In this document: in pieces, positions 276 through 31,686 of the stretch | How the letters are laid out: every line of letters begins with the position of its first letter | Position numbering within the stretch: the first letter of the stretch is position 1 | Source of the DNA: a virus | IMG/VR virus record: IMGVR_UViG_3300026512_000035 | Coordinates: 1 to 37,681 of that record | DNA: 37,681 bases | Strand: one strand, 5' to 3' | The notes under the pieces: model-generated | The model's input: the letters and a program-made list of their open reading frames with translations, nothing else | Database searches by the model: none | What the model was told of the DNA's origin: nothing | Made by a program: the position numbers and the translations under genes

Positions 276-1058
276 TTATGTCGCAAAATAAGTCTGTCTG
301 TTTTCTACTTCTACACCCCAAGCAATAGTCGTACTTGCTTTACCTGTTGCTTTCAAAGTCAATGTAGGGTTTGTAGCATCATTTGTACTTGTTATATCAA
401 AAGCCCAATCAGCATCATCTTTTACTATATCGTCGTTTGTATCACTATCTATTGTAACATTACCGGCTGCATCAACTCTAACGATCAACTTTCTCTCAAA
501 AATCCATTTTGTAGAATAATCATCTTTTATAGCTTCACACTTAACTATTATATAATTTAAAGATTTTATCCATAAGGCGATAGGAAAATAAAAATTAGTT
601 TGAGTATCATCGGTAGTTTTAATTAAATCAAAATGTTTCAAATTTTGTTTTGTTGTGCTATCGTTAGGATTACCTAATCCAAAAGCTTGGCTCATTGGTT
701 GTTTATTTTCAAAATTCCCACCAAAAGCCTGGCTATACATACCACTTGCAGTACAAGTATCTCCAAAAGCATAACTATACACACCACTTGCAGTACAAGT
801 ATCTCCAAAAGCTAAACTACAATCTCCACTTGCAGTACATTCATATCCAAAAGCTAAACTATAATCTCCACTTGCGGTGCAGTTACTTCCTATACATATT
901 TTGCTTTCACTCCCCTGTTGAGTTACGGTAGTACCATCTGTTTTCAAACCAATGCTATCTGCAATTAAATCAAGGTTGTCATCTAATTCTTTTTTAGTTA
1001 AACTACCTGCATAGTCGTCATAATCCCTAAAATGTTTTAAGTCATCTTTTATTGCCAT
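276..1058 (-). CDS. Tail fibre protein with YadA-like head repeats
   Basis: 260 residues. Residues 1-50 are a charged N-terminal segment that could attach to the tail tip. Residues 60-115 are four tandem 14-residue units of the form CTASGxYSxAFGxx, followed by a degenerate SQAFG. This SxAxG repeat is the left-handed beta-roll signature of trimeric adhesin heads (YadA/Hia type), which phages also use in fibres. The C-terminal ~130 residues look like a beta-rich tip domain. Every unit begins with Cys, which is unusual for this fold. The gene sits in the distal-tail operon 3 nt after the upstream gene. A role in host binding is inferred. Confidence 0.65.
   Translation of the reverse strand: MAIKDDLKHFRDYDDYAGSLTKKELDDNLDLIADSIGLKTDGTTVTQQGSESKICIGSNCTASGDYSLAFGYECTASGDCSLAFGDTCTASGVYSYAFGDTCTASGMYSQAFGGNFENKQPMSQAFGLGNPNDSTTKQNLKHFDLIKTTDDTQTNFYFPIALWIKSLNYIIVKCEAIKDDYSTKWIFERKLIVRVDAAGNVTIDSDTNDDIVKDDADWAFDITSTNDATNPTLTLKATGKASTTIAWGVEVENRQTYFAT
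714..881 (-). repeat. Four tandem 42-bp repeats in the fibre gene
   Basis: Four in-frame 42-bp units encode the 14-residue CTASG...AFG repeat of the fibre protein. The DNA copies are very similar, with one stretch shared almost unchanged between units (ccacttgcagtacaagtatc on the plus strand). Copy number could change by slippage or unequal recombination. Confidence 0.85.
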
Positions 1059-1060
1059 AA

Positions 1061-1711
1061 TTATTTCCTTTCATACCAAATATTTAATCTAAACTCATCG
1101 GTAGGCTCTTCCATAGCCTCTGTATAAGCACCCACCACTTGTTTCAACCACAAACCAACATAATCAGTTATCTCATCAAAAAATACCGTACTACAACCGT
1201 TGTATCCAACATCAATAGTTTTATCAGTCCAAATTTTAAATGTTATTTTATTTGTATCAACATTCTCAACCTCCATCATAGTAATTCTATCATCGTTGTT
1301 ATAAAATGTAACTCTATCATCAATTTTTACAAAATCACTCACATCTCTATCTGCGGTTATTTGCTTGTTTGTACTATCAACATTAGTTATAATAAAACCA
1401 CCGTATAATCTAAAATTACTTTTATCCAAATCATGCTCAACTTCACTATTGCTACCTGCTTTACCGATATAAACCTCTTCAGTAGGAGATATAGTAGTTT
1501 TTGCAATATCTATACCAACGGTTATAATATCTTCATCAGTTTTAGCATAAAACTTAAACCACCTCTCTCCGCCTGTTTCTGCTGTATAAGGTCGCACATG
1601 AGGTATAAAACTATGCAAAACCCCTGTTTCTATTTCAGTAGTAGTTATATCCCCGCCATTTACTGTATCATCAAACTCATCATATGTACTTCTATAAAAC
1701 TTTATCATCAA
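1061..1711 (-). CDS. Distal tail / baseplate protein, function unknown
   Basis: 216 residues, acidic, predicted mostly beta, with no signal peptide or membrane segment. It starts with two Met codons and ends in NIWYERK. It lies between the 125-residue tail gene and the fibre gene in a tightly packed operon, so it is very probably a virion protein of the tail tip. No named family could be assigned from sequence alone. Confidence 0.6.
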   Translation of the reverse strand: MMIKFYRSTYDEFDDTVNGGDITTTEIETGVLHSFIPHVRPYTAETGGERWFKFYAKTDEDIITVGIDIAKTTISPTEEVYIGKAGSNSEVEHDLDKSNFRLYGGFIITNVDSTNKQITADRDVSDFVKIDDRVTFYNNDDRITMMEVENVDTNKITFKIWTDKTIDVGYNGCSTVFFDEITDYVGLWLKQVVGAYTEAMEEPTDEFRLNIWYERK

Positions 1712-2100: not shown

Positions 2101-5100
2101 TACATAGCCCTTTTCAAATAACTTGATAATGCCTTAGCAGTAGCTTCATCGCTTTGCATAGCAAAACTTGCACCATCCGGGAATTTGAAGTTAATATTTG
2201 TAGTATCTCCACTTGGAGTATTCACACTTGGTATATCCCCTACATATCCGCCGGTCGCAAATCTCGGCAGTTTTATAGAGTTTATGCTATGTAATAGATC
2301 AGCCCCAAAGTGTTTAACTGCTTCTTTTCTTATTATGAATTCTCCGTCTTCTAAAAGTGCTAAATTTCGATCTCCACCACCATATCCACTAAGCAATCCA
2401 CCTGTTGCAAACTTAGGTAATTTATAAAATTTATGTATAATAGAAGGTTTATCGCTTATTAATTGTTCATTGTACCATCGTTTAAACTTTTCATTATATG
2501 TTGTTTTTTTACCATCAGCATATGACAAAAATCCATTTTGTTCTGCCCAATAAGCAGACGGATAATTGTAACTCCATGTATTATAGCTCATCTCCATAAG
2601 TTTTTGATAAGCGGAAGAGTTGTCAAGAAACTTTATTTTTTTTAATTTTTCAAAATAATCTTTTAACTTGTCTAAATCATAACTATTTTTTACACCATAA
2701 GGCTCATTAATACCTATATCATCAAACTTCTTTTCTATCTCATCTTTATAATATTCAACTTCATCAAGATACTTTTTAAGAGATAATTTTGCATTGTTTA
2801 ACTTTTCATTATATTTTTCAAGTCCACCTATGGATTTTTTATAGCTATTTTCATAACCTTTAAGTTTAACTTCATAAGCGTTATACTCATCTTCACTCAT
2901 AGATTTATTTTTTACACTATTTTTTAGATTTTCCTCTTTTTCTAAAATTAAAGCAGATGCATCTCTTTTACTTTTTACTTCATCAAGCATAGTTTGAAAT
3001 ATTTTTCTAAATTTATTAGGCATATCATTTGCAAGTAATTTTTCAAGCTCTTTTATCAAATCATCCCAACTACCGCTACTACTACCGCTACTATTGTTAC
3101 TCGAATTATCATCTAATTGCTGTATAAGTTTTTGAGGATTTTTTATTTCTACCAATCCGCCTGTTGCAAATTTAGGTAAAAGTTTATTATTTAATCTATA
3201 TAAAAAATCATCTCCATAATGTTTAACTGCATCTCTTTTTATTACAAACTCGCCTCTTGTTAAAAGTGCAGGCACATCATCTTTATCGTTAGGATCATAC
3301 CCACCTATTCGCCCTATTTTTCTTGTAAAACTACCGGCAAACCCACCTTCTGCATGTCGCTCAATCTTCCTAACATATATTGTATGAACAGACGAAGTAT
3401 TTTGTTTTAATTTGTTTATCACACTAAAAGCTTTATTTGCATCTACTTTTACGGTTAGAACGGTAGAGATAGGCTTTTTAAGCATTTCAAGGCTCTTTTT
3501 CGCTTCTCTGTCATCATCTCTTATCTTAAATGTTATAGGCTCTTTACCCTTACCTTTAACCGTTTTTATATCTTTATTCGCCTCTTTAGTATCTGCTGCA
3601 ACTTTCGCTTTTACAGGAGTTTTTTCAAAATTGTTTATTGCATTTTTAATTTTCTCTTTGGCTTTTTTATATTCAGGATTTACCTCTATGGATATTGTAT
3701 TACCTTCAGTTTTATTTATAAACTTCTCTATTCCAAAATCAGCAGGGGTGGTATCGGCTGTAATTTTTAATGTATGTCCATTTATCGTTAAAACAGTATC
3801 AAGTTGTTTTACCTTTCTAAGAGCATCGCTTGTGTCCATATTGATGCTTTTATTCTCTTTTGCCTTTTTATCAAGAGATTTTATCTGAGCATCAAGCGAT
3901 TTGATAGAATTTTTAGCAGCAGATACATCTATATTTATCTTTTTGCCTGTTTGAGCCTCAAGTAATCTTTTTTCTATCTCAAGCCTTTGTAACTCAAGGC
4001 TCATTTGTGCTTTTGTAGCTTCAAGCTGAGTTTTTAAAATCGCCTCTTTTTCGGCTTCAAGCTCTATGGCTTTTTGTTTCTGCTCTTTGTAGTATGTATC
4101 GTTTAATTCTCTTAGCTTTTCAAGTCCGCTTATAGCTACTTGGTTGCTTTGCTCTTTACTAACTATAACCTCGTTATTTTGTTTTATCTCTGTATTTGCA
4201 AGAGATGAAACGATATCCTCATACTTTTGCATATATCTTTTTGCATCTTCAAGCTCTCTATTTTTTAAAGCTTTTTTAGCTTTTGATAGTGCTATCTCGG
4301 CTTGTTTTTGTTTATCGACATACTTGTCATAGTCGCTATATCCGCTTATATTTAAAGAGTGAATTTTGTCATTTATATCCTCGATAGATGCTACTCTTTG
4401 CCTATCTATCTCTTTTAGCCTGTTTTGTAAATCCTTTCTAAGCTGATAGATTTTATCGGTTAAACTCTTTTCACTGTTTTTTAGTTTTTCGATAGTTGCG
4501 GTATGCTCTTTTACCCTTTTTTTATAATATTTCTCATCCTCTTTGGAGAGCTTATTAACCTCTTTTTCGGCTGTTTTAGCTGATGTAGCTACCTCTTCAT
4601 AGGGTTTTATTGTGCTTAATTTTTTAAGATCATGCGATAGCTTCTCGTTTTCCAAAGTTAAGGTTTTTATGTTTGCTGTTGCTTCTATGGAAGTATCACC
4701 GCTTTTTTTTATGCTCTCTATGCTTTTATCGTTAGCTTCTATAAGAGATTGTATCTTTTTTTCAAGTTCGTCTATCTCATCTTTTGTTAGCTTATAGCTT
4801 CCCTCTTTGTTAAAGTCGGCTTGAGCTTTATTTAATTTTGCTTGAATGTCCGTAAACTCTTTCGTGCTTTCTTGGAGTTTCTTTGTCTGTTTGTTTGTTT
4901 TCTCGATACTCTCTTCCCATTTGTCAAAAGCATAGTTTATGCCTTCTATAGCAACAGTTAGTGCAAGAAGTGCAGCATTTGCTTTGCCAAGAGAGATGAT
5001 AGCGGTTTTTAAGAGTTTAAAAGAGGTTATAAGCTTCGCTAATGCCCCCTCGCTCAAGAGTATCTCGGCTGCCATTTTTGTCCCCATAACCGCCTCGATA

Positions 5101-18570: not shown

Positions 18571-19502
18571 AATCTCACCCTCTTTGTTAAATCTCTAAGT
18601 TTGTTTTGAAACTCTTGTTTGTTTGCCGGTTCTATTTGCTTCGGGATAGGCTCAGGAGGAGAATAATTCTCTTTTTTTGCGGTTATCTCTAAGAGCTTGT
18701 AACTGTCGTCGCCTTTTTTGACTGCGAATTTTTTATCAAGCGAAAGATATATATCTTCTCCTGAAAAGCTTTTTGCAAGTATGGGAGATGATACACTCTG
18801 TCCGTACTGCTCTTTGTTTCTCAGCCAAGTATTATAAGCTCTGCTCCAGTTTTTAAACTTTGAGCCTACCGAACAGTGATAATCTTTAAAAGCCTCAAAA
18901 CTATCTGCACTGTCTTTGCTTATAGCATATGCATACAGTCTGTCTTGATACTCTTTGCTTAAAGCTTCAAAAGAGAATTTTTTTGAGAGTGAAAATGAAA
19001 AATTTTTGATTTTTTGTGAAAAAGATTTATCTTTTTCTTTTTTCTCTCTGTTAGTAGTCTCTGTAGTAGTCTCTGTAATTAAATTATTATTCTTATATAG
19101 TTTGGACGATTCGTCCGATACAGTTTGGACGATTTGTCCTGTACAGTTTGGACGATTCGTCCTAACTTGTTGGGATGTTTCGTCCGAACTTGCTTGGATA
19201 CTATTTTCATATAGCTGCCAATCTATATGATAATAAGTTTTTGCGGGGATTCCCTCTCTTGTAATAGTTAAAAAGTTAAGCTTTTTAAGTACTATTTTTG
19301 CCGTTTTTAACTCTCTTTCACTCAGCATAGTCTCTTCCATAAGTTCGCTATCAGTTTTAAAAAATTTGTCTTTTTTGCTAAACCAATACATCATTTGTGA
19401 TAGCAATATCCCCGCCGTTGTGCTACCTGTAAGTTGTCTATATATCGGATAGTATGCTATTGGTCTTTGGTTTAATTGTTGTAGTATTGCTTTATTCATC
19501 AT
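18567..19502 (-). CDS. Replication initiator, lambda O-like, with internal origin
   Basis: 311 residues. Residues 1-100 form a winged-helix domain (RQLTGSTTAGILLSQMMYWF, then a DSELMEETMLSERELKTAK recognition part). Residues about 105-160 are a Ser/Thr/Asn/Gln-rich linker encoded by the iterons and AT-rich DNA. Residues about 170-240 resemble the helical domain of phage replication proteins (YAYAISKD...KNWSRAYNTWLRN). As in lambda, the linker DNA carries the origin, so the protein would bind its own gene and recruit helicase. Confidence 0.75.
   Translation of the reverse strand: MMNKAILQQLNQRPIAYYPIYRQLTGSTTAGILLSQMMYWFSKKDKFFKTDSELMEETMLSERELKTAKIVLKKLNFLTITREGIPAKTYYHIDWQLYENSIQASSDETSQQVRTNRPNCTGQIVQTVSDESSKLYKNNNLITETTTETTNREKKEKDKSFSQKIKNFSFSLSKKFSFEALSKEYQDRLYAYAISKDSADSFEAFKDYHCSVGSKFKNWSRAYNTWLRNKEQYGQSVSSPILAKSFSGEDIYLSLDKKFAVKKGDDSYKLLEITAKKENYSPPEPIPKQIEPANKQEFQNKLRDLTKRVRL
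19053..19098. other. AT-rich part of the replication origin
   Basis: Two tandem 12-bp copies of AGTAGTCTCTGT (19053-19064 and 19065-19076) are followed by a run of almost pure A/T ending in TTATATAG. It abuts the iterons on one side only, as the DNA-unwinding element does in the lambda origin. Confidence 0.55.
19099..19208. repeat. Origin iterons, 23-bp period
   Basis: Three near-identical 18-bp units (AGTTTGGACGATTCGTCC) start at 19099, 19122 and 19145. A fourth with 14 of 18 matches starts at 19168, and a decayed fifth at 19191, all exactly 23 bp apart. Each good unit contains the palindrome GGACGA-T-TCGTCC. The period is not a multiple of three, so the repeats are DNA sites rather than protein repeats. 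Confidence 0.85.
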
Positions 19503-21220: not shown

Positions 21221-21291
21221 AAGTGTATAACATCTACACTTATATAAAGATTAAACAAGTGTAGTTTAGCAACACTTTATAAGTGTATAAT
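21221..21291. promoter_or_regulatory. Repressor operators and promoters, right side
   Basis: Three dyads lie between the Cro-like and repressor genes. AAGTGTA-7nt-TACACTT is at 21221-21241. AAGTGT...ACACTT is at 21257-21277. ACACTT-3nt-AAGTGT is at 21272-21286. The last overlaps the TATAAT at 21286-21291 that would serve the repressor gene. A leftward promoter for the Cro-like gene must lie within the same sites. Confidence 0.75.
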
Positions 21292-21314: not shown

Positions 21315-21998
21315 ATGAAGCTTATAGCTGATAGACTGTCATCTGCAATTAAAGAGAGAGGCTTTTCAAATGCTGATATTGTAAATATTTTATCAAAAGA
21401 TTACAATATAAATATATCAATAGATACTGTAAAGTCATATAGAAGAAAAAATGGCAAAAATATAAATCCATCAACACAAGTTATAACAGCTTTATCAAAA
21501 ATCCTCCATGTAAGTACCGATTATCTTTTGGGAGTTGATAGCGATATAAAACCAGTTAGAAAGATACCAATAGTCGGCACGGCTTCTTGCGGTGGTCCTG
21601 ATATGAACCATCTCCAAGAGATAGATAGATACTGCTATTACGGCGGAAATAACTACAACCCTCAAATGTATGCCCTCATAGCAAACGGAGATAGCATGTC
21701 GCCTGAAATAGACGACGGAGATGAAGTTATATGCGATCCTCTCGACAGAAATATAAATAATGGAGATATAGTGCATTATAGACTTTATAATGAAAGTGCT
21801 ATAAAGATATATTTTAAAGACGAAGATGCAAACATTATCCAACTTATCCCCTATAACCCAACTAAAGAGTTCAAAGTAAAAACCATAAGGCTTGATGACA
21901 GCGAAGCCCAGTTTTTGGAGATGAACAAAGTAGTAGCCATTAATAAGTTCAAAAACAGTTCAAGAGCCAGACGATTGCAGATGATAGGAAGGATTTAG
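21315..21998 (+). CDS. CI-like repressor with S24 (LexA-type) peptidase
   Basis: 227 residues. The N-terminal HTH (residues about 5-72) contains FSNADIVNILSKDYN and ISIDTVKSYRRK. The C-terminal S24 domain has the self-cleavage site Cys92-Gly93 in TASCGG, the nucleophile Ser127 in NGDSMSP and the base Lys164 in SAIKIYF. It should keep the prophage silent and cleave itself when RecA is activated. GAAGGAGA precedes the ATG, and its promoter overlaps operators. Confidence 0.9.
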   Translation: MKLIADRLSSAIKERGFSNADIVNILSKDYNINISIDTVKSYRRKNGKNINPSTQVITALSKILHVSTDYLLGVDSDIKPVRKIPIVGTASCGGPDMNHLQEIDRYCYYGGNNYNPQMYALIANGDSMSPEIDDGDEVICDPLDRNINNGDIVHYRLYNESAIKIYFKDEDANIIQLIPYNPTKEFKVKTIRLDDSEAQFLEMNKVVAINKFKNSSRARRLQMIGRI

Positions 21999-22036: not shown

Positions 22037-22984
22037 TTGTTTGACAATAAAAAATTTACTAAAATTATCAAAAAATCTAATTATACAAGTGCTAAATTGT
22101 CTAATGAACTAATGAAAATAGGTGTAAAATTAACCAAAAATTCCATAGATAGCTATCGTAAAGGTGGTATTAAAAACCCACCTATTGATAAATTATCAGC
22201 TATAGCAGATTTGCTAAATGTAGATGTAAGTAACTTTTTTAATATTGGCGACAAAACCTATATAAAAATCTTAGGATTAGCCTCCCACGGACTTTCTCCG
22301 AATGATACTTGCCAAACATCAGATAATATGTTAACTTTTGGAGAGAAGCTTAAAAAAGCCAGAAAAGATAAAAAAATTTCACAAGAGAAATTAGCAAAAA
22401 TGATAGATGTAAATAGAGTAGCTATATCAAATTATGAACAAAATAAAAATACTCCAACACTAACAAATCTAAATAAAATCATAAAAGCATTAGAATTAGA
22501 CCCTGGTTACTTTGGTTCAAACGACAAAATTCAAGTAAAAAAAATAAAAATCGTAGGATTAACCTCCTGCGGGCTTCCTCTGCCGGATATCTATCAGGCA
22601 TCGGACGAATTTGTCTATGTAAGCGAAGATATATACTCCCCCGATATCTATGCTCTTAAATGTTGTGGGGATAGCATGTCTCCGGAGATAGAGGACTCGG
22701 ACACAGTAGTATGCAAACCGGTAAACGGCATAGACGATCTCAAAAACGGCGATCTTGTGCATTATACCCTGCAAAACGAAAGTGCAGTAAAGATATATTA
22801 TCGTGATAATGACAACTTCTTTATCCAATTTATCCCTTACAACAAAAGCGACGACTTCCGCACCATAAATATAAGGCTTGACGGAGAGAAGATCCACTAT
22901 CTAAAGATAGCGAAAGTGATAGCCGTCATCAAACAAAACATAAACAACCGCCAAAGCCGCCTAAAACTTGCCGGAGTTTTGTAG
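22037..22984 (+). CDS. Second S24 repressor with two HTH domains
   Basis: 315 residues from a TTG start, with AAGGAG 6 nt before. Residues 1-70 are one HTH like that of the first repressor. Residues 76-96 are a leftover of an S24 cleavage loop (GLASHG). Residues 99-160 are a second, canonical XRE HTH (ISQEKLAKMIDVNRVAISNYE). Residues 168-315 are a full S24 domain with cleavage site Cys178-Gly179 (GLTSCG), Ser213 (CGDSMSP) and Lys252 (SAVKIYY). Residues 76-96 align with 170-190, so the gene looks like a fusion of two repressor genes with most of the first peptidase domain lost. Confidence 0.85.
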   Translation: MFDNKKFTKIIKKSNYTSAKLSNELMKIGVKLTKNSIDSYRKGGIKNPPIDKLSAIADLLNVDVSNFFNIGDKTYIKILGLASHGLSPNDTCQTSDNMLTFGEKLKKARKDKKISQEKLAKMIDVNRVAISNYEQNKNTPTLTNLNKIIKALELDPGYFGSNDKIQVKKIKIVGLTSCGLPLPDIYQASDEFVYVSEDIYSPDIYALKCCGDSMSPEIEDSDTVVCKPVNGIDDLKNGDLVHYTLQNESAVKIYYRDNDNFFIQFIPYNKSDDFRTINIRLDGEKIHYLKIAKVIAVIKQNINNRQSRLKLAGVL

Positions 22985-23160: not shown

Positions 23161-23825
23161 AAAATCCGGCGAAAATCATATATACTTTTGTTCTATCCAT
23201 AGATAAAAATTCTCGTAATACTTCTACAATGATAGAAGCATATAAGACGATATTTGGGGTAAATAATATATTCCAAGTATATGAAAGATTGCATATCATT
23301 GACAACCAAATAGCACTGCTTGAAAAGATTCTTGAAAATTCAGGCAAACTGCAAAACTATAAAAATATGATAAGAGATACAAAAAACCTCGTTCATATGG
23401 TAAATCTAACCCAATCCCCGCAAGGGATAAAACAAATCATATCAAATATAAAGCCTTTATATATGGTATTGGCTGATGCTTTATGGGATAGTGTGGATGT
23501 AAAAGAGGATATAGATAGTGTTATAAAAGATATCGACGATTTTATAAAGAGTGTCAAAGCCTCAAGCTCTCTTAAAAGCAAAGAGAAGATCATTATCGTA
23601 AAGGTTACAAACAATCTTAAAGAAGCACTTGAGCTTTATCAGATAGGCGGATACGATAGACTTATAGAAGCACTTAAAACCTTTGAGTGTTTTACAAAAG
23701 ATGACAAAAAGGCTTCGTCCATCTATAAAAAAATAGAGGCTTTCATGGATAAAGCCTCAAAGGTAAAATCCGGCATAGAAACCTTGGAATATTTTAAGAC
23801 TGCTTTGATAAGTCTTTCTTTATAG
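23157..23825 (+). CDS. Hypothetical helical protein, immunity region
   Basis: 222 residues from the ATG at 23157-23159, chosen over an upstream Met because AGGAG lies 7 nt before and the start overlaps the previous stop. All helical, with heptad-like stretches (about 50-80 and 115-150). No signal peptide or membrane segment. As a gene beside the repressors it is probably expressed in the lysogen and could act in superinfection exclusion, but this is only by position. Confidence 0.55.
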   Translation: MKNPAKIIYTFVLSIDKNSRNTSTMIEAYKTIFGVNNIFQVYERLHIIDNQIALLEKILENSGKLQNYKNMIRDTKNLVHMVNLTQSPQGIKQIISNIKPLYMVLADALWDSVDVKEDIDSVIKDIDDFIKSVKASSSLKSKEKIIIVKVTNNLKEALELYQIGGYDRLIEALKTFECFTKDDKKASSIYKKIEAFMDKASKVKSGIETLEYFKTALISLSL

Positions 23826-24030
23826 CCTTTTTAACAAACTCCCAGTCTATATCTTTTTTGCCGGTGGCAAAGTCTATAACATTTCTTATGTCGATGATAT
23901 CCAGTATGATCATATCAAATACCCTTATCCATTTCTCATCAACACTCGCACCGTTTTTGTCATGTCTTAACTCATCTTTTAACTTTTGAGCTACTTCGTC
24001 AAGCTCCAGTATCAACTCTTTCATACTCAT
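23794..24030 (-). CDS. Small acidic hypothetical protein
   Basis: 78 residues from the ATG at 24028-24030, with AAGGA 7 nt upstream. Helical (MKELILELDEVAQKLKDEL). It is leftward, convergent with the 222-residue gene, which it overlaps by 32 nt. A TATAAT on the minus strand (24060-24065) lies upstream, next to an operator half-site, so it is probably repressor-controlled. Confidence 0.5.
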   Translation of the reverse strand: MSMKELILELDEVAQKLKDELRHDKNGASVDEKWIRVFDMIILDIIDIRNVIDFATGKKDIDWEFVKKAIKKDLSKQS

Positions 24031-24059
24031 AACCTCATCCTTTCTCAAAAATTTTATAG

Positions 24060-24137
24060 ATTATAGCATAAAAAAGTAAAAAAGTGTATTAATAATACCC
24101 TATTTAAGTTATTATTAAGTGTATTTATATTACACTT
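24060..24137. promoter_or_regulatory. Repressor operators, early rightward/leftward control
   Basis: AAGTGTA-7nt-TACACTT at 24117-24137 has the same 21-bp form as the operator at 21221. A lone AAGTGTA sits at 24082-24088, and an AATAATA/TATTATT dyad between them. A leftward -10 (ATTATA on the plus strand, 24060-24065) is flanked by the half-site, and the full operator overlaps a TATATT that could be the rightward -10. One repressor therefore probably controls both immunity ends, like lambda oL and oR. Confidence 0.7.
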
Positions 24138-24145
24138 TCAATATC

Positions 24146-24492
24146 GAAACGATTAAAACCGTTTCAAGTTCTTTAGTAAGCACTTCCATGAGGAGTAGGA
24201 AGACAAAAAGGAGTGTTATTCTCTCCTGTCGTCTTTATATTCGGGGACACCTTTAAACTTCCCTCCGGAAGTTTTGGGAGTGCTTACAAGTTTTTTTAAC
24301 TTCCCCCTTGCCGTCCGCGGCCACGGTAAGGCACTTTTTTAGTGATGTTGGCAAAGTCTTTCAAAAAGCTCGGAGACGGGAGCTAAGACTATTTATAAGG
24401 ACGCACACGGAGTTGACTCCTTGCTCCACCTTCCGAAATGCAACCGCAGATAGAAAATCTCTTCATTTTAAGTGTGCGTCCCTGTAAATAGT
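24146..24492 (+). ncRNA. Long structured leader or RNA before early genes
   Basis: The 458 bp between genes at 24030 and 24507 hold operators, then about 350 nt of stacked RNA folds. A GAAACG/CGTTTC hairpin is at 24146-24165. A 12-bp closing stem pairs 24176-24187 with 24276-24287 around two inner hairpins (AAGAC/GTCTT with AGGAG/CTCCT; AAACTTCC/GGAAGTTT). A GTCTT-AGCTC/GAGCT-AAGAC hairpin lies at 24356-24389. The last stem pairs 24388-24395 with 24485-24492 and 24399-24408 with 24472-24481 (18 bp) and ends just before the ribosome site of the first early gene. No ORF is present. It may be a regulatory leader, an antitermination element or a free RNA. Confidence 0.6.
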
Positions 24493-24506
24493 TTTAAGGA
24501 AAGCAG

Positions 24507-24722
24507 ATGCAAAAATATTTTTGTGCAAAAGTAAAATTTAAAGATCACAGCAATGTTCATACCGACTTAAAAGATAAAGAGTTTTGCTTGTTGGGATACA
24601 CAGACAATGCTATCGCATTAATCGAATGGGACAAAAGAGGAGAATATACCTTTGATTATTACACGGCAAGTTTAAAAGACTTGATAATCCTTGAACAATA
24701 CGAACTAAAGGCAAGCAGATGA
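24507..24722 (+). CDS. Early hypothetical protein
   Basis: 71 residues, first gene after the structured leader, with AAGGA before the ATG. Beta-rich with VKFKDHSNVHTDLKD and several aromatic residues. It overlaps the next gene by 4 nt (ATGA). No family recognised. Confidence 0.55.
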   Translation: MQKYFCAKVKFKDHSNVHTDLKDKEFCLLGYTDNAIALIEWDKRGEYTFDYYTASLKDLIILEQYELKASR

Positions 24723-25020: not shown

Positions 25021-25422
25021 ATGAAAGAGATTAAATTTAGAATTTGGGATAAAAGAAGAAAAATGTTTGCAAAACAAATAACTACTTTTAAGTTTGATAG
25101 AGAAGGAAATACAAACTTAGTCGTCTATTTAGATAAGACAAACAAGACAAGAGAAATAATTGAACAAGAAAAAGTTTATACTAACGAATTTGAACTTCTA
25201 CAATACACAGGGTTAAAAGACAAGTTAGGTGTGGAGATTTACGAGGGAGATATTGTTAAATGTGAAAAAAATGGAATATGGGTAATTCGTTTTGATAATA
25301 GTTGTTTTAAAGCATTTGGGGCTTGTAAAAAAACTAAAACTTTAGTTGTTCCACAAATTCAATATAAAATTTTTGAAGTAATTGGAAACATACATAAGAA
25401 TAAGGAGTTGTTAAATGTTTAA
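25021..25422 (+). CDS. YopX family protein
   Basis: 133 residues with the family marks: MKEIKFRIWDKRRKMF at the start, ELLQYTGLKDKLGVEIYEGD in the middle and FEVIGNIHKNKELL at the end. YopX proteins are common in phage early regions. Their molecular role is not known. GGAG precedes the start by about 13 nt. It overlaps the next gene by 8 nt. Confidence 0.85.
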   Translation: MKEIKFRIWDKRRKMFAKQITTFKFDREGNTNLVVYLDKTNKTREIIEQEKVYTNEFELLQYTGLKDKLGVEIYEGDIVKCEKNGIWVIRFDNSCFKAFGACKKTKTLVVPQIQYKIFEVIGNIHKNKELLNV

Positions 25423-25651
25423 AGTATTAGATAAAGTGTGCGAGCCACAAAGAGCCACTAAATACAGCAGTTCAGTTGATTTATTTGCGAGAGAAAGTGT
25501 AACGATAGGTGCGGGAGAAACACAAAAAATCCCACTTGGGGTTAAAATAGACTTAGAAAAAATAAAAAAAATTACTCCAAATTATAATGAAATAGTTAAA
25601 TATTATGAAGCAATGATGACAAAAAAACTACACAAGGAGGATAAGATATAA
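25415..25651 (+). CDS. Truncated dUTPase-like protein
   Basis: 78 residues. Residues 1-48 follow the start of trimeric dUTPases: KVLDKVCEPQRATKYSSSVD (motif 1 region), LFARESVTIGAGE, then KIPLGVKI. Motifs 2 to 5, including the active-site Ser, Asp and Tyr segments, are missing, replaced by about 30 helical residues. Full enzymes have about 150 residues. It cannot hydrolyse dUTP alone; it may be a remnant or a regulator built on the dUTPase fold. Confidence 0.6.
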   Translation: MFKVLDKVCEPQRATKYSSSVDLFARESVTIGAGETQKIPLGVKIDLEKIKKITPNYNEIVKYYEAMMTKKLHKEDKI

Positions 25652-30573: not shown

Positions 30574-30618
30574 TGGTTGCGGGAGGAGGATTTGAACCTC
30601 CGACCTTCGGGTTATGAG
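30574..30618 (-). other. Attachment site core: 3' half of initiator tRNA-fMet
   Basis: On the minus strand the 45 nt read from the anticodon loop CTCATAA through CCCGAAGGTC, a T-arm with GGTTCAAATCC, and CCCGCAACCA. This is the 3' half of an initiator tRNA-Met(CAU). The 5' half is absent: the bases upstream do not form a tRNA. Integration here would restore a full host tRNA gene. It lies just after int. Confidence 0.85.
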
Positions 30619-31248: not shown

Positions 31249-31366
31249 AAAAATACAAAAATATTATAAAATTATATCTAAAAGTGATATTTGCTATTGA
31301 CAAGTGTTCTCTAAAATGATATAATTCTCTCATAAATGTTCTTAAAAGGAACATTGTTCTTTAAAA
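31241..31366 (+). promoter_or_regulatory. Consensus promoter with four direct repeats
   Basis: TTGACA (31297-31302) and TATAAT (31320-31325) are spaced by 17 bp, a full sigma-70 consensus and the best promoter in the window. Four copies of TGTTCTnTAAAA lie at 31241, 31305 (inside the spacer), 31337 (one base shorter) and 31355. AATGTTC/GAACATT also forms a dyad just downstream of the start. The copies are likely sites for a repressor, possibly the HTH protein upstream. Confidence 0.7.
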
Positions 31367-31394
31367 GAGGATTGTTAAGTTTGGTTTTTTGTGG

Positions 31395-31400
31395 TATAAT
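31395..31400 (+). promoter_or_regulatory. Second -10 box, 6 nt before the ATG
   Basis: TATAAT with a T-rich upstream stretch. The ATG at 31407 is 6 nt on, the same spacing as at 6355/6367, so a leaderless message is possible. Confidence 0.45.
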
Positions 31401-31406
31401 CAGACT

Positions 31407-31592
31407 ATGAAAAAAGAGACACTAAAAGAGAGTGGAAAATATATCTTAGACTTATCTAAGATTGTGATAGCTATGGCGGTTATCACACCGTTTGTAAAAG
31501 ACAGCCATTTTGAGATAGCACCGCTTATCATAGCTGGTGCTTCGTCTTTGGTCGGACTTTATCTTATCAACAAAGGAGCTAAAGATGAGTAG
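31407..31592 (+). CDS. Small membrane protein (holin-like)
   Basis: 61 residues from the ATG at 31407. A longer reading from a TTG would include the -10 box. After a charged start (KKETLKESGKY) there are two hydrophobic helices (about 13-27 and 36-53) joined by a short loop, and a charged end. This resembles small holins or host-acting membrane proteins. It overlaps the next tiny gene by 8 nt. Confidence 0.55.
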   Translation: MKKETLKESGKYILDLSKIVIAMAVITPFVKDSHFEIAPLIIAGASSLVGLYLINKGAKDE

Positions 31593-31686
31593 CTTAACGA
31601 TTGCTTCACTGCTTATACTTGCTTTTGCAGTAGGTATAGCCATATATGCAAACATGACATCAAACAAGGCACACCACAACCACTAA
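31585..31686 (+). CDS. 33-residue membrane peptide
   Basis: MSSLTIASLLILAFAVGIAI is one membrane helix, followed by a short polar tail with KAHHNH. AAAGGAG lies 6 nt before the ATG. It is co-translated with the gene before it. It could be a holin partner or a toxin-like peptide; no proof in sequence. Confidence 0.5.
   Translation: MSSLTIASLLILAFAVGIAIYANMTSNKAHHNH

Follow-up and report, generated by a model that had tools for sequence, protein, structure and literature searches.

Antitermination by RNA alone has been described for HK022 and for a small group of put sequences, in which the put RNA acts on the zinc-binding domain of the RNA polymerase β′ subunit so that termination is suppressed. 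Two lambda leaders offer further points of comparison: the N leader, which consists of nutL and an RNase III hairpin, and the pR′ leader, or 6S RNA, which ends at the terminator tR′ and belongs to the late promoter and the Q protein. The put element of HK022 is about 70 nt long, consists of two stem-loops, and is present on both early transcripts in mutually similar copies, putL and putR (PMC9378689).

The sequence compared here with these systems (the window) is the 37,681-nt IMG/VR virus record IMGVR_UViG_3300026512_000035 which, judged by its gene content, is a temperate phage of Campylobacterota. The nearest relatives of its integrase are those of the Nitratiruptor phages NrS-1 to NrS-5, one structural protein has 55–56% identity to NrS-1 and NrS-2, and the terminase resembles, among others, those of Helicobacter pullorum prophages. 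Two S24-type repressors (21315–21998 and 22037–22984) are flanked on one side by a leftward unit containing cro, CII-like and replication genes and on the other by a rightward early unit, whose last genes are RecT, an exonuclease and the integrase. Adjoining the integrase is a tRNA-Met 3′ end (CAT anticodon, 30577–30615), likely the attachment (attP) core; a segment near it also matches the relative L005. Other features of the window include a stretch (31345–31607) with 67% DNA identity to NrS-2 2805–3065, upstream of an antirepressor-like gene, and a dUTPase-like gene (25415–25651) that is shortened to 78 aa, compared with 180 aa in the relative L009, and is followed by a structured 500-nt stretch. 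Iteron-like GTTTGGACGATTCGTCC repeats at 19100–19230, within the O-like replication gene, form the top-ranked fold in a regression-based 150-nt scan of the window and mark a probable replication origin.

In a pattern scan of the 37.7-kb window, perfect copies of the operator AAGTGTA-N7-TACACTT were found only at 24117–24137 (plus strand) and, at the leftward early promoter, at 21221–21241 (minus strand). Each is accompanied by a weaker copy 35–36 bp away (at 24082 and 21257); the one on the rightward side (24082–24102, plus strand) has two mismatches and is 35 bp from its perfect partner. The regions flanking the two perfect operators are also similar to each other over 100 bp. Such paired exact operators are the arrangement expected of two repressor-controlled early promoters, and the −10-like TATATT at 24126–24131, inside the rightward operator, is the candidate −10 of the rightward early promoter. 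On the leftward transcript, a cro-like ATG lies about 5 nt past the putative start, so there is no leader; on the rightward side, a promoter of the same type leads into a leader of 369 nt (24138–24506, plus strand). Next comes the first gene of the rightward early (recombination) operon (24496–24722 with its ribosome site, plus strand; AAGGA at 24496–24500, ATG at 24507), whose 71-aa product belongs to an unknown family, is not Arg-rich, and yielded no convincing relatives, viral scan included. The extent given in the initial annotation, from the repressor operator to the first early ribosome site, is thus borne out at both ends.

The leader is strongly structured and untranslated, as that annotation had proposed. 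Its minimum free energy corresponds to a z-score of −7.0, with none of 150 dinucleotide shuffles equally stable, and the slightly larger interval 24100–24520 gave −7.5. Both halves are significant by themselves (24146–24340, z −5.5; 24366–24506, z −5.2), the plus strand folds better than the minus strand (z −7.0 versus −4.9), and the main helices have predicted mean pair probabilities mostly between 0.8 and 1.0. The longest ATG frame within the leader has 22 codons, and none of the frames has a usable Shine-Dalgarno sequence. None of 4227 Rfam families matched the leader at its gathering threshold, the best chance scores falling far under the thresholds, and identities as a group I intron, retron, pRNA, tmRNA or riboswitch were rejected for lack of such a match; likewise, no tRNA or tmRNA gene was found, and no split gene or reverse transcriptase was noticed.

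From 5′ to 3′, the plus-strand RNA is predicted to form a hairpin with the stem GAAACG/CGTTTC (24146–24165, pair probability about 1.0); a four-arm domain, D1 (24176–24287, z −6.0, 0 of 500 shuffles as stable), in which a 13-bp closing stem (24176–188/275–287) encloses arms at 24193–24242, 24243–24252 and 24255–24274; a small hairpin, AAGTT-TTTTT-AACTT (24288–24302, probability 0.88); a hairpin resembling an intrinsic terminator (24306–24340); a hairpin with the stem AGCTC/GAGCT (24367–24384, probability 0.84); and a long hairpin, D3 (24385–24495; z −5.2 for the interval 24366–24506). The helices of D3, of 13 and 10 bp (24385–397/483–495 and 24399–408/472–481), are separated by one bulge, and its end abuts the AAGGA ribosome site; judged by its length, D3 may be an RNase III-type substrate. 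The closing stems, put at 12 and 18 bp in the initial annotation, are 13 and 13 + 10 bp long.

The terminator-like element, which had escaped the initial annotation, comprises a 9-bp hairpin with five GC pairs (24306–24331), a CAC spacer and a run of six U residues. We scanned the whole window for an uninterrupted U6 behind a hairpin with a minimum of 8 bp and four GC pairs, and this was the only plus-strand site found in 37.7 kb; only 0.3% of shuffled leaders contained one. The scan returned one other site, on the minus strand just past the stop of the minus-strand gene 23794–24048, which is where a true terminator should be placed. The element at 24306–24340 thus combines a GC-rich hairpin with a U tract in the manner of an intrinsic terminator, but with a 3-nt spacer and moderate stability (z −2.1), and transcription may well terminate there. 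When the growing transcript was folded prefix by prefix, D1 formed first and the terminator next (stem probability about 0.96); none of these folds showed an antiterminator pairing in competition with it. A classical two-state attenuator is therefore not predicted, and read-through would require a change in the polymerase or an additional factor.

One proposal of the initial annotation did not withstand scrutiny. The loop of the AGCTC/GAGCT hairpin, GGAGACGG (24372–24379), had been singled out there since it holds GACGG, which could pair with CCGTC at 24311–24315. The complementarity is present, but it is no more than chance would give: of the shuffled leaders, 68% have one or more 5-mer complements of this loop, and the leader has three where 1.3 are expected. 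Moreover, four of the five bases of CCGTC are already paired in the terminator stem (probability 0.92–0.96). We therefore rejected this loop pairing.

How closely does the leader resemble the described systems? Like HK022 put, it is a structured RNA placed close behind an early promoter and ahead of a terminator, and a family search recognized no antitermination protein among the early genes scanned. In contrast to put, however, it is 369 nt long, has several domains and is confined to one transcript. A word-7 BLAST against putL and putR gave no match, while the control comparison of putL with putR was found at 3e-5, and no put match to the leader was seen in a phage collection that includes HK022. 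The unit of about 70 nt with two adjacent stem-loops is absent, the first unit of the leader being a 20-nt hairpin plus a 112-nt four-arm domain; nor is there a second copy on the leftward early transcript, where only an 18-nt AT-rich match was found. The suggestion that the region is a put-like signal is tenable as a way of working, but membership fails on sequence, size and second copy. With the lambda N leader it shares an early position and a long hairpin beside the ribosome site of the first gene, but no boxA or boxB was recognized by eye and the 71-aa first gene product is not an Arg-rich, N-like protein. As in lambda 6S/pR′, a promoter-proximal transcript of about 200 nt would extend to an intrinsic terminator upstream of an operon, but here the promoter is an early one and no Q was recognized in the window. 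The leader is of a known kind, the phage early leader, but it is unrelated in sequence and fold to the known ones.

Searches of phages, plasmids and 397 Campylobacterota genomes with the leader DNA revealed no homologue, and viral contigs yielded none either; two marginal genome matches were dismissed as chance on inspection. Two single-sequence covariance models of the leader, R3 and R2, also found none, and as such models reach only near relatives, this absence is weak evidence that the leader is unique. The R3 model gave two weak genome matches, with an E-value of 7e-4 that is expected by chance across 397 genomes; one of these, L041, was rejected, as its match is largely confined to the 5′ hairpin and its location is inside a ribosomal-protein operon. 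When the 5′ hairpin was used as a search pattern, it returned mostly a recurrent one-mismatch sequence, and the viral pattern match L064 was likewise rejected as chance. Viral scans with neighboring proteins (the first early protein, RecT and a repressor) reached no leader homologue, and of the two relatives obtained by structural-gene alignment, neither record contained a leader match.

The corresponding slot is occupied by a different RNA in the sister phages. In NrS-1, NrS-2 and NrS-4, the stretch that separates cro or the early promoter from the early recombination operon contains a structured element (minus strand; L002 13572–13662, L003 11104–11187, L004 11627–11714), which is also present in NrS-3 and NrS-5. 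A loop-pattern search identified further members in the viral contig L069 (about 550–655, plus strand) and at the genome loci L083, L085 and L087 (near 1500–1600, minus strand), as well as the NrS-1- and NrS-2-like copies L084 and L086. The element is thus found in Campylobacterota prophages in addition to the Nitratiruptor phages. Alignment of seven distinct sequences defined two stem-loops. The first loop is UUGGCAGGAGAGCAC with a single exception, L087, and the second, GGUAGCCGAGCCACGAC, is invariant, in part since the genome loci had been found by searching with it. Compensatory changes affect 11 of 24 stem pairs, and 96% of the alignment cells are paired, a value matched by none of 500 shuffles. 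Two stretches tested had no Rfam match, and the NrS leader RNA element is apparently an undescribed RNA. Downstream of the element comes a long hairpin, placed in NrS-4 and L069 immediately ahead of the first ribosome site, like D3 in the window; as the U tract after this hairpin varies from 0 to 5 U and is not conserved, the hairpin is not reliably a terminator in this family.

The window leader occupies the same slot, with operator/cro on one side and the early recombination operon on the other, and here too a long hairpin comes after a structured element. The two share no sequence, however, and the pair of stem-loops with conserved loops is found only in the NrS element: the window leader lacks the loops GGCAGGAGAG and GGTAGCCGAGCCACGA with their two covarying stems, nhmmer returned nothing, and the second loop is absent from the window even when up to four mismatches are allowed, the first giving loose matches only. 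By sequence, the window leader is not a member of the NrS leader RNA element family. What the element supports is that leader RNAs control early operons in phages of Campylobacterota, not that the window leader is its homologue; it raises the prior for such control in the phage group and says nothing direct about the window molecule.

Two additional sets of structured RNAs were observed in relatives. The most similar repressor found (45%) belongs to phage L009, which has two related long hairpins (2197–2284 and 3122–3202, plus strand) with compensatory stem differences, each shortly before an AAGGA-type site and the second just before an early ribosome site. Opposite the recombination operon, L004 (10570–10850), L002 (12510–12790) and L003 (10500–10790) have a strongly structured plus-strand transcript with an internal terminator and a Shine-Dalgarno sequence paired with an upstream anti-SD; it encodes a 26-aa membrane peptide, MEHISWLATFAYLMLAVGYILLAVTH, and has the appearance of a type I toxin-like mRNA.

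The reading that we favor, giving it an even chance, is that the region is a cis-acting leader of the early operon, with a promoter-proximal attenuator, read-through by way of the D1 RNA, and D3 as a hairpin for processing, stability or translation. Once repression is lifted, the leader of about 370 nt would be transcribed from the promoter that the repressor operator overlaps, yielding in order the 5′ hairpin, D1, the terminator hairpin with its U6, and D3 at the first ribosome site. The terminator would attenuate early transcription, releasing a short RNA of about 203 nt, and read-through into the operon would occur when the D1 RNA acts on the elongating polymerase, either alone, as put does, or together with a factor; D1 is given this role since the folds offer no alternative antiterminator pairing. 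D3 may then serve RNase III-type processing, stability or translation control, as in the lambda N leader. We infer this mode of action, including the promoter, termination, read-through, antitermination and the role of RNase III. What the analysis itself shows is the sequence, the predicted fold with its significance, the operator, the terminator-like signal and the lack of an ORF. The fold statistics, the operator pair, the ribosome-site boundary and the unique plus-strand terminator count in favor of a cis-acting leader, as do the sister-phage slot with its covarying RNA and long hairpin, and the L009 hairpin just before an early ribosome site. Against it count the absence of a leader homologue, the 3-nt spacer before U6 and the moderate stability of the terminator; the sister-phage RNA, which shares no sequence with the leader, supports the slot and not the molecule. 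Good support for the broader claim of the initial annotation, that of a regulatory leader, comes from its position, from the better fold of the plus strand, from its limits at the operator and the ribosome site, and from the terminator-like element inside it.

The main rivals are a discrete RNA of about 203 nt and a purely post-transcriptional leader. That annotation had also raised an independent RNA, and because of the terminator we retain this for the first 203 nt: a trans-acting RNA (24138–24340) would end at the intrinsic terminator, and the operon would be read through inefficient termination, a layout comparable to the lambda 6S/pR′ leader RNA. The compact fold and the uniqueness of the U6 terminator on the plus strand agree with this, and the 5′ end is predicted to pair with 24344–24350 if read-through occurs. 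However, no conservation turned up in any search, no target is obvious, and transcription from this one promoter must also read through to serve the early operon; we consider this alternative improbable. We are similarly doubtful that the leader acts only after transcription, with D3, and perhaps D1, being cut by RNase III or shielding the mRNA and its ribosome site, and with the terminator-like hairpin as nothing more than an mRNA stability element. The 23-bp D3 duplex directly before the ribosome site, and the similarly placed hairpins in NrS-4, L069 and L009, would fit a post-transcriptional role, but the statistically unusual U6 terminator and D1 would be left unexplained.

Far less probable is an element acting as DNA, such as a cruciform, a mobile hairpin or MITE, an origin or a packaging site. 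The 25-bp inverted repeat at 24384–24408/24472–24496 (88%) would suit such an element, but the transcribed strand folds better, no more copies occur in 397 genomes, phages or plasmids, and the iteron-like origin repeats are elsewhere, in the O-like gene. Least probable of all is a type I toxin-like mRNA or cryptic small-peptide gene like that opposite the recombination operon in NrS phages, for while NrS-1, NrS-2 and NrS-4 have the structured mRNA for the 26-aa membrane peptide nearby and the leader contains a basic 22-codon ATG frame at 24188, this frame lacks a Shine-Dalgarno sequence, and no frame in the leader combines a hydrophobic product with a normal start and normal spacing from an SD.

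Returning to the cis-acting leader, a bolder version, which we put forward only tentatively and think rather unlikely, is that the window leader and the NrS element are independently protein-free antitermination signals, exerting put-like control with unrelated folds. If true, put-like control would have evolved outside the coliphages, in phages of Campylobacterota, where phage regulation is little studied. If leader RNAs do control these early operons, they would provide new, testable cases in which an RNA reprograms the polymerase or gates lysogenic induction, and even if the window leader proves ordinary, the covarying element of the Nitratiruptor phages is a concrete conserved target.
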